Source: an uncultured bacterium | GTDB lineage: Bacteria; Actinomycetota; Coriobacteriia; Coriobacteriales; Coriobacteriaceae | Assembly: GCA_905215095.1 (NCBI GenBank) | Contig: CAJMOL010000006.1 | Coordinates: 1 to 18,217, forward strand | DNA: 18,217 nucleotides | Direction: 5' to 3' | Shown here: one piece after another, positions 5,409 to 9,151 of the stretch | How the letters are laid out: the number at the start of each line of letters is the position of its first letter | Position numbering within the stretch: position 1 is the first letter of the stretch | Program-made: the position numbers and the translations under genes | Notes under the pieces: model-generated | Told to the model about the DNA's origin: nothing | The model's input: the letters and a program-made list of their open reading frames with translations, nothing else | Database searches by the model: none

Positions 5409-5933
5409 ATGAAGAAGACCATCGCAATCGGTTGCGACCATATCGTTACGGACGAGAAGATCTATCTGGCCGACCGCCTGGAGCAGGCTGGTTACAAGGT
5501 GCTCGACTGCGGCACCTACAGCCACACCCGTACGCACTACCCCATCTACGGTAAGGCCGTGGGCGAGGCTGTTGCCAGCGGCAAGGCCGACTTTGGCGTG
5601 GCCCTTTGCGGCACCGGCATCGGCATCACCAACGCCGTCAACAAGGTTCCCGGCGCCCGCTGCGCCCTGGTCCGCGACATGACCTCTGCCCTGTATGCCC
5701 GTCGCGAGCTCAACGCCAACATCGTGGGCTTTGGCGGCAAGATTACCGGCGAGTTCCTGATGGCCGATATCATGCTTGCCTTCCTGGAGGAGCCCTACGA
5801 GAAGACCCCCGAGCACGATGCCCTGATCGCCAAGATCGATGCCTGCAATAAGGCCGACGCCGAGGCTCAGGCTGACCCGCACTTCTTTGACGAGTTCCTC
5901 GAGAAGTGGGACCGCGGCGAATACCACGATTAA
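5409..5933 (+). CDS. lacB: Galactose-6-phosphate isomerase subunit LacB
   Basis: 174 aa, close to the usual 171 of LacB. It carries GCDHIVTD at 8-15, [10 protein letters not shown] at 40-49, the catalytic-loop motif CGTGIGI with Cys67, [20 protein letters not shown] at 79-98 and the very conserved ending [20 protein letters not shown]. These separate it from ribose-5-phosphate isomerase RpiB. LacB is thought to supply the active-site Cys while LacA completes the site. GAAAGGA lies 7 nt before ATG 5409. The stop codon is followed after only 5 nt by the first hairpin of the structured element at 5939-6079. Confidence 0.97.
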
Positions 5934-5938
5934 GGGGT

Positions 5939-6079
5939 TCCGGCGTTCTACCGAACGCCGGACCGGCCGACGCTGCGAAGCCATCTGGCGGGCAATCTGC
6001 CGTTCAGCTTCGGCGGCATGACCAGAAGGTCAATGCCGCCTCGCTTCACGGCACCTTGCCTCGCCAGCTGACTTCTCGC
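5939..6079 (-). ncRNA. Unrecognised structured RNA element, copy 1 (partner of 8179-8322)
   Basis: Helices, by plus-strand coordinates: P1 5975-5980 with 6072-6079 (2-nt bulge 6075-6076); P2 5985-5990 with 6062-6067 and 5991-5994 with 6057-6060 (bulge 6061); P3 5998-6002 with 6049-6053; P3a 6003-6008 with 6043-6048; P4 6012-6019 with 6033-6040 and 6020-6023 with 6028-6031 (bulge 6032, 4-nt loop). A separate 10-bp hairpin (5939-5948 with 5953-5962, loop TACC) begins 5 nt after the lacB stop, and CGACGCTGCG (5968-5977) follows it. Copy 2 keeps every helix, bulge and loop size while most paired bases differ. On the minus strand the non-paired positions become tandem G-A (UGAA opposite UGAA) and G-U pairs, which favours that strand. 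The GAAA-type loop of copy 2 on the plus strand is the counter-argument. No T-run follows on either strand. I cannot assign an RNA family. Confidence 0.72.
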
Positions 6080-6082
6080 TGA

Positions 6083-6306
6083 CGTTGGGGGTACCTGTGG
6101 GGTTACCGCTGTTGTTGCGAAGCTTTCTGGTTCAGTAAGCTGCTCCGATAACACGTTTGCTTGCTGAGCTTGTGGGCTTCGTTTTGGCGGGACCCAGTAT
6201 TCTGCAGCTTTTCAATTGACGGCTCGCGTTTCTGTGAGGGGGCGCGGGCCGGTTTTCTATCAGCCCTATTGACTTGGCGGGCTGTCATAAGAAAGGGAAG
6301 GCTCCT
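6083..6306. other. Leader region before the aldose epimerase gene, no feature seen
   Basis: 224 nt between the structured element and the epimerase start. I looked for -35/-10 pairs: TTGACG (6216-6221) and TTGACT (6269-6274) occur, but neither has a -10 at a usual distance. No coding frame with a ribosome site and no strong hairpin are seen. Confidence 0.4.
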
Positions 6307-7188
6307 ATGGAGTTTGTTCTTGATAACGGTTCTATCCGCGTAGCACTGAGCACGGCGGGCGGCTCGTTCACCTCAATTGTGGCCGACGGTCGCGAGTATC
6401 TGTGGCAGGGCGATCCTTCGGTCTGGTCGGGCCAGGCACCCATTTGCTTCCCGATCTGCGGCGGCCTTCGTGATGGTCGCGCAATGGCCATGGGCGGCCG
6501 CGAGGTAAAGCTCGCCCGTCACGGCTTTGCGCGCAAACAGGAGTGGAAGCTCGAGGAGCAGGGCGACAACATGGTTGCGCTGAGCCTAAGCTCTGCCGAC
6601 CATGCCGAGTTGCTCGAGCAGTACCCGTATCCGTTTAAGATCGTTGCTCGCTACACGATTGATTCGGAAAAGGTGGTCGTGTCGTACGAGGTGACCAATG
6701 AGGGCACCGAGGACATGCCGTTCTTTGTGGGCGGTCATCCCGGCTTTAAGTGCCCGCTCGACGAGGGCGAGTCCTATGACGACTACGAGCTCCGTTTTGA
6801 GCAGCGTGAGGCCGCCGAGCTCTGTACTGCCGTTCCCTCGACGGGCCTGATTGATGTTGAGCATCGCAGCAAGAATCCCATGATCGGCCAGAACCTGCCG
6901 CTTACCCACGAACTCTTCGACTTCGCGGAGACCATCTTCGACGTGCTCGAGAGCCGCGTGGTTACGCTGACCAAGAAAACCGAGGACAAGGGCGTGCGCC
7001 TGACGTTCCCCGATATGCCGTACCTGATTGTATGGAGCAAGCCCGAGGGCGACTTTGTGGCAGTTGAGCCGTGGGGTGGTCTGTCCACCTGCTCCGATGA
7101 GGACGATGTTCTGGAGCACAAGCGTGGCTGCCTGGTGGCCAAGCCGGGGGAGACCGTTACCCGCGGCTTTGAGATCGAGATCCTTTAA
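6307..7188 (+). CDS. lacX: Aldose 1-epimerase family protein, LacX/GalM-like
   Basis: 293 aa. The start is ATG 6307 because GGGAAGG lies 5-6 nt upstream; an in-frame ATG at 6274 lacks a ribosome site. The protein has the galactose-mutarotase-like beta-sandwich signatures: ICFPICGGLRDGR (47-59), RHGFAR (about 72-77), GGHPGF with the conserved His, and VEPWGG near the C-terminus, whose Glu is the expected catalytic base. The family interconverts alpha and beta anomers of aldoses, in the cytoplasm here since no signal peptide is visible. A protein of this type, LacX, closes the lactococcal lac operon, and the placement here just before lacC supports the same role, possibly on a phosphorylated hexose. 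The symbol follows that resemblance, and exact substrate is unknown. Only 53 nt separate it from lacC, so they are probably co-transcribed. Confidence 0.88.
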   Translation: MEFVLDNGSIRVALSTAGGSFTSIVADGREYLWQGDPSVWSGQAPICFPICGGLRDGRAMAMGGREVKLARHGFARKQEWKLEEQGDNMVALSLSSADHAELLEQYPYPFKIVARYTIDSEKVVVSYEVTNEGTEDMPFFVGGHPGFKCPLDEGESYDDYELRFEQREAAELCTAVPSTGLIDVEHRSKNPMIGQNLPLTHELFDFAETIFDVLESRVVTLTKKTEDKGVRLTFPDMPYLIVWSKPEGDFVAVEPWGGLSTCSDEDDVLEHKRGCLVAKPGETVTRGFEIEIL

Positions 7189-7205
7189 CGAGTTATCGTA
7201 TGTTT

Positions 7206-7225
7206 GGGGCGGGTCATGCCGCCCC
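7206..7225 (+). other. Small GC-rich hairpin in the lacX-lacC gap
   Basis: GGGGCGG (7206-7212) pairs with CCGCCCC (7219-7225) around a 6-nt loop and ends 3 nt before the AGGAG ribosome site of lacC. There is no T-run, so it is not a terminator. It may protect the downstream message or tune lacC translation. Confidence 0.55.
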
Positions 7226-7241
7226 GGAACAGGAGTTCAAC

Positions 7242-8177
7242 ATGATTCTGACCGTTACCATGAACCCGTCGATTGATACGCGCTATCAGCTCGACAAGCT
7301 GATTATCGACGATGTTAACCGTGTGACGCCCGAAAAGACCGCTGGCGGCAAGGGCCTCAACGTGAGCCGTGTGCTGCTGCAGTTGGGCGACGATGTGCTC
7401 GCGACCGGTCTGCTCGGCGGTCACATGGGTGCCTATATGGCCGAGCTCATGGATGCCGATGGCGTCAAGAACGACTTTGTGCCCATCGCTGGCGAGACAC
7501 GCATCTGCCTGAATATCCTGCACGAGGGCAACCAGACCGAGCTGCTGGAGAGCGGCCCGCAGATCGCCCCGGCCGAGCTCGAGGCCTTTACGGCCAAGTT
7601 TGCCGAGCTTGCAGCGAAGGCGGACGTTGTGACGCTTTCGGGCTCGCTGCCGCGCGGCGTCGATGCCGGCTACTATGCCGAGCTCGTCAAGATCGCTGAG
7701 GAGGCGGGCGCCAAGGTGCTGCTCGATACCTCGGGTGCATCGCTGGAGGCCGCGCTTGAGTCCGACGCTAAGCCTGAGCTCGTAAAGCCCAACCTGACCG
7801 AGACTAACGGCCTGCTGGGTACGTCCTTTACGACTGATGATGTCGATGCCCTGCGCGAGGCGCTCGCCGCCGATGGCCGCTTTGCCGGTATTCCCTGGGT
7901 TGTCGTTTCGATGGGCGCTGCCGGTTCGGTGGGCTTCCATGAGGGTCGCGCGTTCCGCGCCAAGACGCCTGCGATTGCGGCTGTGAACGCGACGGGTTCC
8001 GGTGACTCGACCATCGCCGGCTTTGCACATGCCATTGCTGCTGGCGCCGACGACGTCACGGTGCTCAAGACCGCCAATACCTGCGGCAAGCTCAACGCCA
8101 TGGATCCCAAGACCGGCCACCTGGTCATGGACCGCTGGGATGAGATCTTCAACAACGTTGAAGTAACGGAGCTTTAG
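7242..8177 (+). CDS. lacC: Tagatose-6-phosphate kinase LacC (PfkB family)
   Basis: 311 aa, the normal size for LacC. Start ATG 7242 is chosen because AGGAG lies 6 nt upstream and MILTVTMNPSID is the family N-terminus; an in-frame ATG at 7200 has no ribosome site. PfkB features appear in order: TMNPSIDTRYQLD at the start, GGKGLNVSRVL (about 37-47), LSGSLPRG (about 131), and the C-terminal signature NATGSGDSTIAGF with Asp255 as catalytic base. It phosphorylates tagatose-6-phosphate to tagatose-1,6-bisphosphate with ATP. 1-Phosphofructokinase is the nearest alternative, but the lacAB neighbours and the TGSGD variant favour LacC. The aldolase that should follow (LacD) is absent from the window. 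The stop codon is followed after 1 nt by the hairpin of the second structured element. Confidence 0.93.
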   Translation: MILTVTMNPSIDTRYQLDKLIIDDVNRVTPEKTAGGKGLNVSRVLLQLGDDVLATGLLGGHMGAYMAELMDADGVKNDFVPIAGETRICLNILHEGNQTELLESGPQIAPAELEAFTAKFAELAAKADVVTLSGSLPRGVDAGYYAELVKIAEEAGAKVLLDTSGASLEAALESDAKPELVKPNLTETNGLLGTSFTTDDVDALREALAADGRFAGIPWVVVSMGAAGSVGFHEGRAFRAKTPAIAAVNATGSGDSTIAGFAHAIAAGADDVTVLKTANTCGKLNAMDPKTGHLVMDRWDEIFNNVEVTEL

Positions 8178-8178
8178 A

Positions 8179-8322
8179 GTTACGCGGTTTTACCAAACCG
8201 CGTAACGGCTCGACGCTGCGCGGGCCGCATTTGGACAATCTGACGTTCAATTTCAAGGGCGCGACCGAAAGGTCAGCGCCCTTTCATTTCACGTCACCTT
8301 GTCTCAAATGCGACCCGCTCGC
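8179..8322 (-). ncRNA. Unrecognised structured RNA element, copy 2 (partner of 5939-6079)
   Basis: Same architecture as copy 1. P1 8218-8224 with 8314-8322 (bulge 8318-8319); P2 8226-8233 with 8305-8312 and 8234-8237 with 8300-8303 (bulge 8304); P3 8241-8245 with 8292-8296; P3a 8246-8251 with 8286-8291; P4 8255-8262 with 8276-8283 and 8263-8266 with 8271-8274 (bulge 8275, loop GAAA). C8225 opposite A8313 repeats a mismatch seen in copy 1 and is a G-U pair on the minus strand. The separate hairpin has 12-bp arms (8179-8190, 8195-8206) and again the loop TACC, then CGACGCTGCG. It starts 1 nt after the lacC stop. Paired bases differ from copy 1 in most helix positions, always with the partner changed too. 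The strand assignment is inferred and less certain than the fold. Confidence 0.72.
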
Positions 8323-8343
8323 TCACAAGCCAAAACATCGGGG

Positions 8344-8421
8344 TAGTCATTGGGGACGTTCTTAAATGACTAGTCGTTGGGGACGTTCTTAAATGACTAG
8401 TCAAACAAGAACGTCCCCAAC
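8344..8421. repeat. Two tandem 27-nt repeats plus an inverted partial copy
   Basis: 8344-8370 and 8371-8397 differ at one base (TAGTCATTGG versus TAGTCGTTGG start). The 15-mer GTTGGGGACGTTCTT (8376-8390) then recurs inverted at 8407-8421, so the last unit can form a 15-bp hairpin with a 16-nt loop. No T-run follows directly. A related sequence occurs at 3471-3490. The rest of the gap to lspA holds only a possible -10, TATAAG (8496-8501), without a good -35. Confidence 0.75.
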
Positions 8422-8551
8422 GTCTACTTTCGTCACTTTTTAGCTGGTTATTTCGCTTGCGTTGGTGGATATGTCGTGCGTTCTGCTTATGGCAATATAA
8501 GATGGATTATTGCGTAAACGGAATTTGATTATCTGAGGGTAGGGGATTGAT

Positions 8552-9151
8552 TTGGGTCGCACTGGGGATATGACGCCGCCTTTGCGTTGGCGGTTGGGAG
8601 TTGCTGGTGGGGTAGCGCTCGTTGTGCTGCTTGTTGACCAGCTGACCAAGCTTGCGGTTCGTGCCGTGGGCGATGCGCTGCATATGACTGTTATCCCCGG
8701 TGTGATCGACTTTATGTTTGTCCGCAATATCGGTGCTGCCTTTAGCATGGGCGAGGGGCATGGCATCGCGTTTGCCGTGCTGGCGTTGGCGGTCATTATC
8801 GCTATTGCCGTGTACCTCGTTCGTGCACCCCAGCTCGCCCATCTTGAGGTTGTGGGCATGGCGATGGTTGCGGGCGGTGCTATCGGCAACGCTATCGATC
8901 GTTTGGCCTTTGGCTTCGTGACCGATTTTATTGCAACCACCTTCATCGACTTCCCCGTCTTCAATGTGGCCGATATCGGCATTACCTTGGGCGTCGTGCT
9001 CGCCCTCTTCGGCTACATGTTCTTGAGTCCCGCGGCCCGTGAGGTCGATGCGACCGCCGAGCTTAACGCCCGTGACGAGGCCCGCGCTAAGCGCAAGGCC
9101 CAGCAACGCGGGGAGCGTGCCCGCAAGATTCGCGAAAGGAACGAGCGCTAA
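8552..9151 (+). CDS. lspA: Lipoprotein signal peptidase (signal peptidase II)
   Basis: 199 aa with a TTG start at 8552, supported by AGGGG 6 nt upstream; the first in-frame ATG (8570) has GGGG only 2 nt away. LspA removes the signal peptide of diacylglyceryl-modified prolipoproteins in the cytoplasmic membrane. Four hydrophobic segments are seen (about 17-34, 71-91, 101-116, 141-160). The aspartyl dyad lies in GNAIDRL (Asp116) and FNVADIGI (Asp141), with the conserved RNIGAAFS at 58-65. The C-terminal tail (about 165-199) is unusually charged, rich in Ala, Arg, Lys and Glu, and longer than in most LspA proteins. The stop overlaps the next start (TAATG), which points to translational coupling with the pseudouridine synthase, a common pairing. 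Confidence 0.95.
   Translation: MGRTGDMTPPLRWRLGVAGGVALVVLLVDQLTKLAVRAVGDALHMTVIPGVIDFMFVRNIGAAFSMGEGHGIAFAVLALAVIIAIAVYLVRAPQLAHLEVVGMAMVAGGAIGNAIDRLAFGFVTDFIATTFIDFPVFNVADIGITLGVVLALFGYMFLSPAAREVDATAELNARDEARAKRKAQQRGERARKIRERNER

Follow-up and report, generated by a model that had tools for sequence, protein, structure and literature searches.

The window analyzed here, a stretch of 18,217 bases, carries a lac gene cluster of a Collinsella, and in it the same composite element lies directly behind the stop codons of two genes, lacB and lacC (Table 1). Each copy consists of hairpin A, a link of 3 to 4 nt, and a long hairpin B with its borders. The two copies probably belong to a family of ∼190-bp non-autonomous mobile DNA elements of Collinsella and many genera of its order, similar to repetitive extragenic palindromes (REPs) and miniature inverted-repeat transposable elements (MITEs). 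A non-autonomous element recognized on its bottom strand (the strand opposite the mRNA) is the best reading of the copy number, the insertion polymorphism, the subfamily differences at the same site, the unrelated neighboring genes, and the strand bias described below.

Structure and covariation

In an earlier note on this DNA, two diverged copies of one structured element had been described, and the helices, the bulges, and the 4-nt loop were found as drawn there, as was the separate hairpin A. The stems covary as claimed: RNAalifold placed 40 pairs in the two B hairpins of the window, 16 of which were changed on both sides and none of which was broken. When hairpins A and B were folded together, the single copies gave z values of −7.8 and −9.9, and none of 200 shuffles folded as well. 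Among 74 distinct relatives, 94.2% of cells paired, versus 30 to 43% with partners slid by 1 to 3 columns. Changes on both sides occurred at 30 of the 40 pairs, and double-changed cells numbered 621 versus a shuffle mean of 187. The covariation score was reached by none of 500 shuffles; 20 of these did reach one measure, that of further pair types. Since only two copies had been seen at first, chance or an artifact of the drawing might have been suspected, but the covariation score and the finding of matches in 33 of the 43 genomes searched within the genus (see below) refute this explanation and leave it practically no probability.

The earlier note did not recognize the family, and a search of Rfam 15 was in agreement: in the whole window no match rose above a curated threshold, Collinsella-1 (RF01700) included, and the three weak matches obtained over positions 5700 to 8600 at E up to 10 did not fall on either element.

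Well-matched copies mostly showed the order stop codon, about 0 to 5 nt, hairpin A, CGACGCTGCG, hairpin B, and CTCGCTGAC. In genomes G001 and G003, 28 of 32 matches to a hairpin A pattern lay 3 to 5 nt from a hairpin B match of R1, a covariance model built from the two window copies (compared by eye). The copies inspected from the G230 lineage had no hairpin A, and several of them still lay a few nucleotides behind a stop codon (by eye). Neither hairpin was directly followed by the T-run of an intrinsic terminator in the sequences inspected by eye. Deviating copies were also seen. At L024, the loop of hairpin A read CGTAG instead of CTACG, which would fit an inversion of the hairpin between its two arms, and behind lacC of C. 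stercoris and C. intestinalis (L119 and L121) a relaxed or tandem hairpin B without hairpin A was found by eye.

Copy number and range

With R1, the nearest genome gave 29 matches and one closed genome, at an E threshold of 0.1, gave 32, which lie at 31 places; match counts can include the antisense double of the same palindrome, as happened once among these 32. Within the genus, 21 of the 43 genomes had 20 to 34 matches each, 12 had 1 to 8, and 10 had none. The copies are thus not specific to lac genes, and the further homologues with compensatory changes required by the earlier note exist in related genomes. A broader covariance model, built from 75 copies, found the element in at least 130 of 396 genomes and at least 35 of 153 genera of the class, counts that are lower bounds, with 9 candidates per genome scored. 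At 150 candidates each, 14 positive genomes yielded 1 to 26 matches. All positive genomes listed except G063 fall in three families of the order of Collinsella, as judged from kinship labels and the membership of Collinsella in the Coriobacteriales. Before counting, 11 antisense matches were dropped; loci L270 and L283 (weak matches, family f6), L259 and L262 (short flanks), and L285 were dropped as well. L270 and L283, both from G063, which belongs to another family of the class, have similar long hairpins and are possibly a distant relative of the element.

Carriage by phages was rejected as an explanation for the spread. No DNA similar to copy 1 was present among 50,697 phage records (E 1e-5), and three IMG/VR matches to one pattern, without the hairpin, look like chance.

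Polymorphic insertion sites

Comparison of relatives revealed sites with and without the element. At one clean site (L017), 9 of 20 informative loci were empty, and the two convergent genes shared a 4-nt stop-codon overlap (CTAG, TTAA, or TTAG). The remaining 11 were filled, with 197 nt replacing the 4 nt in seven loci, 196 to 204 nt in three, and 256 nt in one; these counts leave out 10 of 30 loci, which had no right-hand anchor. The typical insertion was 193 bp. As read, both genes kept a stop codon in the filled loci, with CTAG or TTAG on the left and CTAC, CTAT, or CTAG on the right, and a duplication of 3 to 4 bp is possible.

Similar variation was found at the two sites of the window. 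Among 17 relatives, the lacB site was full in 4, truncated in 1, and empty in 12, and the flanking of the lacX-lacC unit, to which the earlier note had drawn attention, is therefore incidental. The elements of L064 and L068 at this site belong to a subfamily other than that of the window. The lacC site of 17 relatives held full elements of three subfamilies in 13, remnants in 2, and none in 2. At a further site (L007), 8 of 21 loci had a full element, 6 had hairpin A only, 6 had neither hairpin, and 1 had another hairpin (9 of 30 loci below 75% identity are left out). Between G001 and G003, 15 sites were common, and 13 and 14, respectively, were without a partner in the other set; differing gene content or the ends of contigs may also account for missing partners. 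The two genomes carried hairpins of different subfamilies at six or more of the common sites. L002 and L176 had the outer part of hairpin B in common and the inner part not. At L417, an element of another subfamily stands before the tail of an apparent older element at the same site, an arrangement that suggests replacement or nested insertion.

Strand preference of hairpin B

In stems, the strand that folds is expected to have more G.U than A.C mismatches. For hairpin B, G.U versus A.C on the bottom strand amounted to 41:16 distinct contexts in Collinsella (P = 0.0013) and to 87:32 in other genera (P = 5e-7). The mRNA strand shows A.C over G.U, and the wobble excess therefore belongs to the bottom strand. 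Terminator-like stems, counted on their own strand as a control, gave 26:13 (P = 0.053). Mutation is commonly biased toward C-to-T changes on the leading or coding strand, which would act opposite to the observed mismatch bias. The bottom strand was also the more stable one in 194 of 196 distinct elements with RNA parameters and in 193 of 196 with DNA parameters. For the two window copies, the bottom strand had −75.8 and −72.4 kcal/mol versus −63.9 and −62.2 kcal/mol for the top strand, which is the one drawn in the earlier note. The top-strand internal loops UUCA/UUCA and AUCU/ACCU correspond to tandem G.A-type loops on the bottom strand. A link to replication orientation is suggestive only: in one closed genome, 14 of 15 elements in two arcs agreed, versus 91 of 132 genes (P = 0.07), with the arcs picked after seeing the data and 16 of 18 matches listed.

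The covariation had been taken in the earlier note as the mark of selection on RNA structure. A precise paired structure is indeed conserved, but an RNA is not the best reading of it, because the wobble pairs favor the strand opposite the mRNA, because the copies are insertion-polymorphic repeats behind unrelated genes, and because no promoter-like conservation was found at a fixed distance beside them. The last point bears on small RNAs that would be transcribed from the bottom strand and would be antisense to the end of the gene upstream, a reading that the G.U preference and the fold stability of that strand would favor. Beyond 20 nt, the mean information content of 10-nt windows did not exceed 0.11 bit, in a scan that would miss a promoter at varying distance. 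Moreover, no T-run followed hairpin A on the bottom strand (by eye), and the many copies per genome have different flanks, so that small RNAs of this kind appear quite unlikely.

A bottom-strand fold is also a feature of integron recombination sites, since integron recombination uses the bottom strand of attC (PMC2117344). Like attC sites, the element is an imperfect bottom-strand hairpin that adjoins stop codons and keeps its structure while its sequence changes. Unlike them, it occurs, in the flanks scanned, as single copies behind core genes; no cassettes or arrays were seen, R and L boxes were not seen by eye, and filled loci at L017 gained only the element itself. We consider an attC-like site very improbable.

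Placement behind stop codons

At 119 of 199 distinct sites, an open reading frame of at least 100 codons ended 28 to 40 nt before CGACGCTGC, compared to a background of 6.2 per equal window (counted at 60 to 200 nt, with five of 204 rows removed as duplicates). The proteins scanned by Pfam, nine encoded upstream and one downstream of elements, were unrelated to each other. Those upstream were the products of lacB and lacC, lysyl-tRNA synthetase, release factor 1, gyrase B, an alpha/beta hydrolase, an anaerobic ribonucleotide reductase, Hsp90, and one protein without a family; the one downstream was an ABC-2 membrane protein. Because the neighboring genes are unrelated, the element is unlikely to be a switch for one pathway. 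In three genomes of another family of the order, f5 (L303, L347, and L357), the upstream gene appears by eye to extend into hairpin A and to stop inside the loop of hairpin A, and the element would there supply the C terminus of its product.

The main alternative to a mobile DNA element starts from this placement: a function in the sense 3′ untranslated region (UTR) would be what is selected, and mobility would be history. Hairpins A and B might be kept because they make the end of the transcript more stable or delay the ribosome on the stop codon. Consistent with such a role, the copies lie about 0 to 5 nt after stop codons, some sites are common to several genera, and ribosomes are stalled by REPs that lie within 15 nt of a stop codon (PMC12306157). 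The L159 site also fits. Among the 20 closest of 30 loci, the element was present in 10 (4 of which run into a contig end) and absent in 10, and the other 9 readable, more distant loci were without it. All 10 close loci without the element have a terminator-like hairpin behind the stop codon; none was noticed in the 6 alleles that have the element and a readable flank (both by eye). However, the sense strand folds worse, its mismatches in hairpin B are biased in the wrong direction, and the element is cleanly absent from close relatives at the lacB and L017 sites. On balance, we regard a 3′-UTR element as unlikely. A mobile DNA element could plausibly also act on the upstream mRNA in a secondary way, because stop-proximal REPs stall ribosomes: hairpin A, as a 3′-UTR passenger, may slow termination in analogy to REPs of Escherichia coli.

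Search for a mobilizing enzyme

Of the 43 genomes of the genus, 37 encode Y1 transposases (PF01797), and the other 6 gave no R1 match at an E threshold of 0.001. A REP-associated tyrosine transposase (RAYT) was nevertheless rejected as the mobilizer: the broader model gave 1 or 2 matches in three genomes lacking PF01797 (G015, G017, and G039), and only 1 of 30 fetched Y1 loci (L183) had an R1 match beside the transposase gene. Of two RAYT loci read, L200 (G001 C8) has a RAYT-like Y1 transposase gene between GGGACGGGG palindromes. Gene and palindromes likely constitute a REP-transposase pair of Collinsella.

Proposed mechanism and points against it

If the element is mobile, a putative recombinase or transposase would recognize hairpin B when the bottom strand is single, in analogy to IS200/IS605 transposases and integron integrases. 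Copies behind stop codons may survive because no gene is broken there, or insertion may be targeted to a motif of the stop codon, which reads YTAR at the one clean site. The copies within a genome could be kept alike by recombination with each other.

Several observations weigh against a mobile element of this kind. Element ends and target are known from one clean site, and no inverted terminal repeats are present. Apart from the single Y1 locus mentioned above, clusters of neighboring open reading frames contained no recurring transposase, as judged by eye without annotation. A number of sites are occupied in more than one genus (for example, L149, L152, and L175 with L287; also L290, L318, L353, and L366), which would also fit selection for presence or repeated insertion. 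Hairpin A was recognized in only 153 of 204 rows and showed no strand bias (2:3 and 9:9). As for hairpin B, the mismatches counted are not independent of phylogeny, the control with terminator-like stems was only borderline, and an earlier count from the model alignment gave no asymmetry (71 G.U versus 73 A.C). In that count, 37 of the 71 G.U cells were at one pair shifted by a bulge, and model-alignment counts were replaced by direct alignment of the arms for this reason.

Relation to known repeats

REPs and the bacterial interspersed mosaic elements (BIMEs) associated with RAYTs (TnpA-REP) resemble the element in being multicopy intergenic palindromes downstream of genes and composite with other repeats. 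They differ in that here two dissimilar hairpins of ∼150 nt stand in fixed orientation, the insertion is ∼193 bp, and one strand is favored. A REP is a palindrome of 20 to 40 bp (PMC3733652). Hairpin A, at 28 nt, falls in this range but mostly occurs with hairpin B in a much longer insertion, and, compared to the repeat-flanked transposase gene of REP systems, only 1 of the 30 fetched Y1 loci held an R1 match.

No transposase is known for the palindrome family of the CGTC-tagged REPs (Di Nocera 2013, PMC3733652), a point of similarity to the element. A CGTC also lies a few nucleotides ahead of hairpin A when the bottom strand is read, but the stem has roughly 12 bp and different first pairs (by eye), compared to stems of 8 to 9 bp, loops of 4 to 5 nt, A-T first pairs, and a CCA-type tail in CGTC-tagged REPs. 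Actinobacteria are not among the five phyla named for them in that article.

Miniature elements derived from IS200/IS605 have hairpins on one strand, for which the element shows a strand bias, and are similar to it in the lack of inverted terminal repeats and, as far as the one clean site shows, in a tetranucleotide at the insertion point. For the element described here, no matching TnpA was located, and a target duplication of 3 to 4 bp is possible; such a duplication is not known for the IS200/IS605 family. The Collinsella-1 RNA motif (RF01700) likewise comes from Actinobacteria and the human gut (PMC2864571), but it remained below its cutoff throughout the window.

REPs and CGTC-tagged REPs are known kinds of repeats (PMC3733652). 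Several features set the element apart from the known kinds, MITEs among them: it joins two hairpins in a composite, is anchored at stop codons, shows a bias to one strand, and is spread over three families of a single order. In the literature searched, on RNA motifs of Coriobacteria, REPs and RAYTs, and MITEs and intergenic repeats, the element was not described; within that range, neither its anchoring at stop codons nor its composite of two hairpins nor its bias to one strand appears to have been reported. It may be contained in the supplements of PMC8040213, which reports thousands of candidate RNAs, including 20 palindromic ones not predicted as terminators. Whether the family amounts to a new mobile class, one that would move in the form of its folded bottom strand, insert preferentially at translation stop codons, have persisted throughout the order of Collinsella, and use an enzyme outside the groups so far linked to such repeats, is doubtful, and we propose it only tentatively.

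The element is of interest for several reasons. Collinsella is a common human gut genus, and its well-populated genomes carry 20 to 34 matches, at stop codons that include, in various genomes, those of gyrase B, release factor 1, and lysyl-tRNA synthetase. If mobile, the element would make insertion guided by a single strand accessible to study and provide an assay for its putative recombinase. If hairpin A slows termination, it would be a ready-made, strain-variable modulator of gene output. More generally, strong covariation between two copies can arise from a mobile DNA palindrome, and a simple count of G.U versus A.C can suggest which strand folds.

Features and surroundings of the window copies

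TABLE 1 Parts of the two element copies and the stop codons that anchor them
Feature	Position	Strand	Basis
TAA stop codon of lacB, anchor of copy 1	5931..5933	+	Open reading frame (ORF) list (ORF 5409-5933), LacAB_rpiB by Pfam
Hairpin A of copy 1, TACC loop, 3 nt after stop codon	5937..5964	+	Letters, single-copy fold
Hairpin B of copy 1, borders CGACGCTGCG and CTCGCTGACG; bottom strand folds better	5968..6084	-	RNAalifold, folding energy
TAG stop codon of lacC, anchor of copy 2	8175..8177	+	ORF list, PfkB by Pfam
Hairpin A of copy 2, TACC loop, 1 nt after stop codon	8179..8206	+	Letters, single-copy fold
Hairpin B of copy 2, borders CGACGCTGCG and CTCGCT; bottom strand folds better	8211..8327	-	RNAalifold, folding energy

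The loci most closely related to lacX of the window were those of uncultured Collinsella and C. aerofaciens, and all the lacX-related loci listed by name came from Collinsella except for one weak Lachnospiraceae match. Many Collinsella genomes have a second lacX copy (L103 to L118), 78 to 80% identical to that of the window and with its own lacC adjoining. Behind copy 2, positions 8344 to 8424 of the window contain inverted repeats of the TTGGGGACGTTCTT type. A mir-4880 match at these positions, with 34.5 bits versus a cutoff of 100, looks like a palindrome artifact. Inverted repeats of the same type were also found behind several copies in G001 (L004, L005, L012, L013, L014, and L024).

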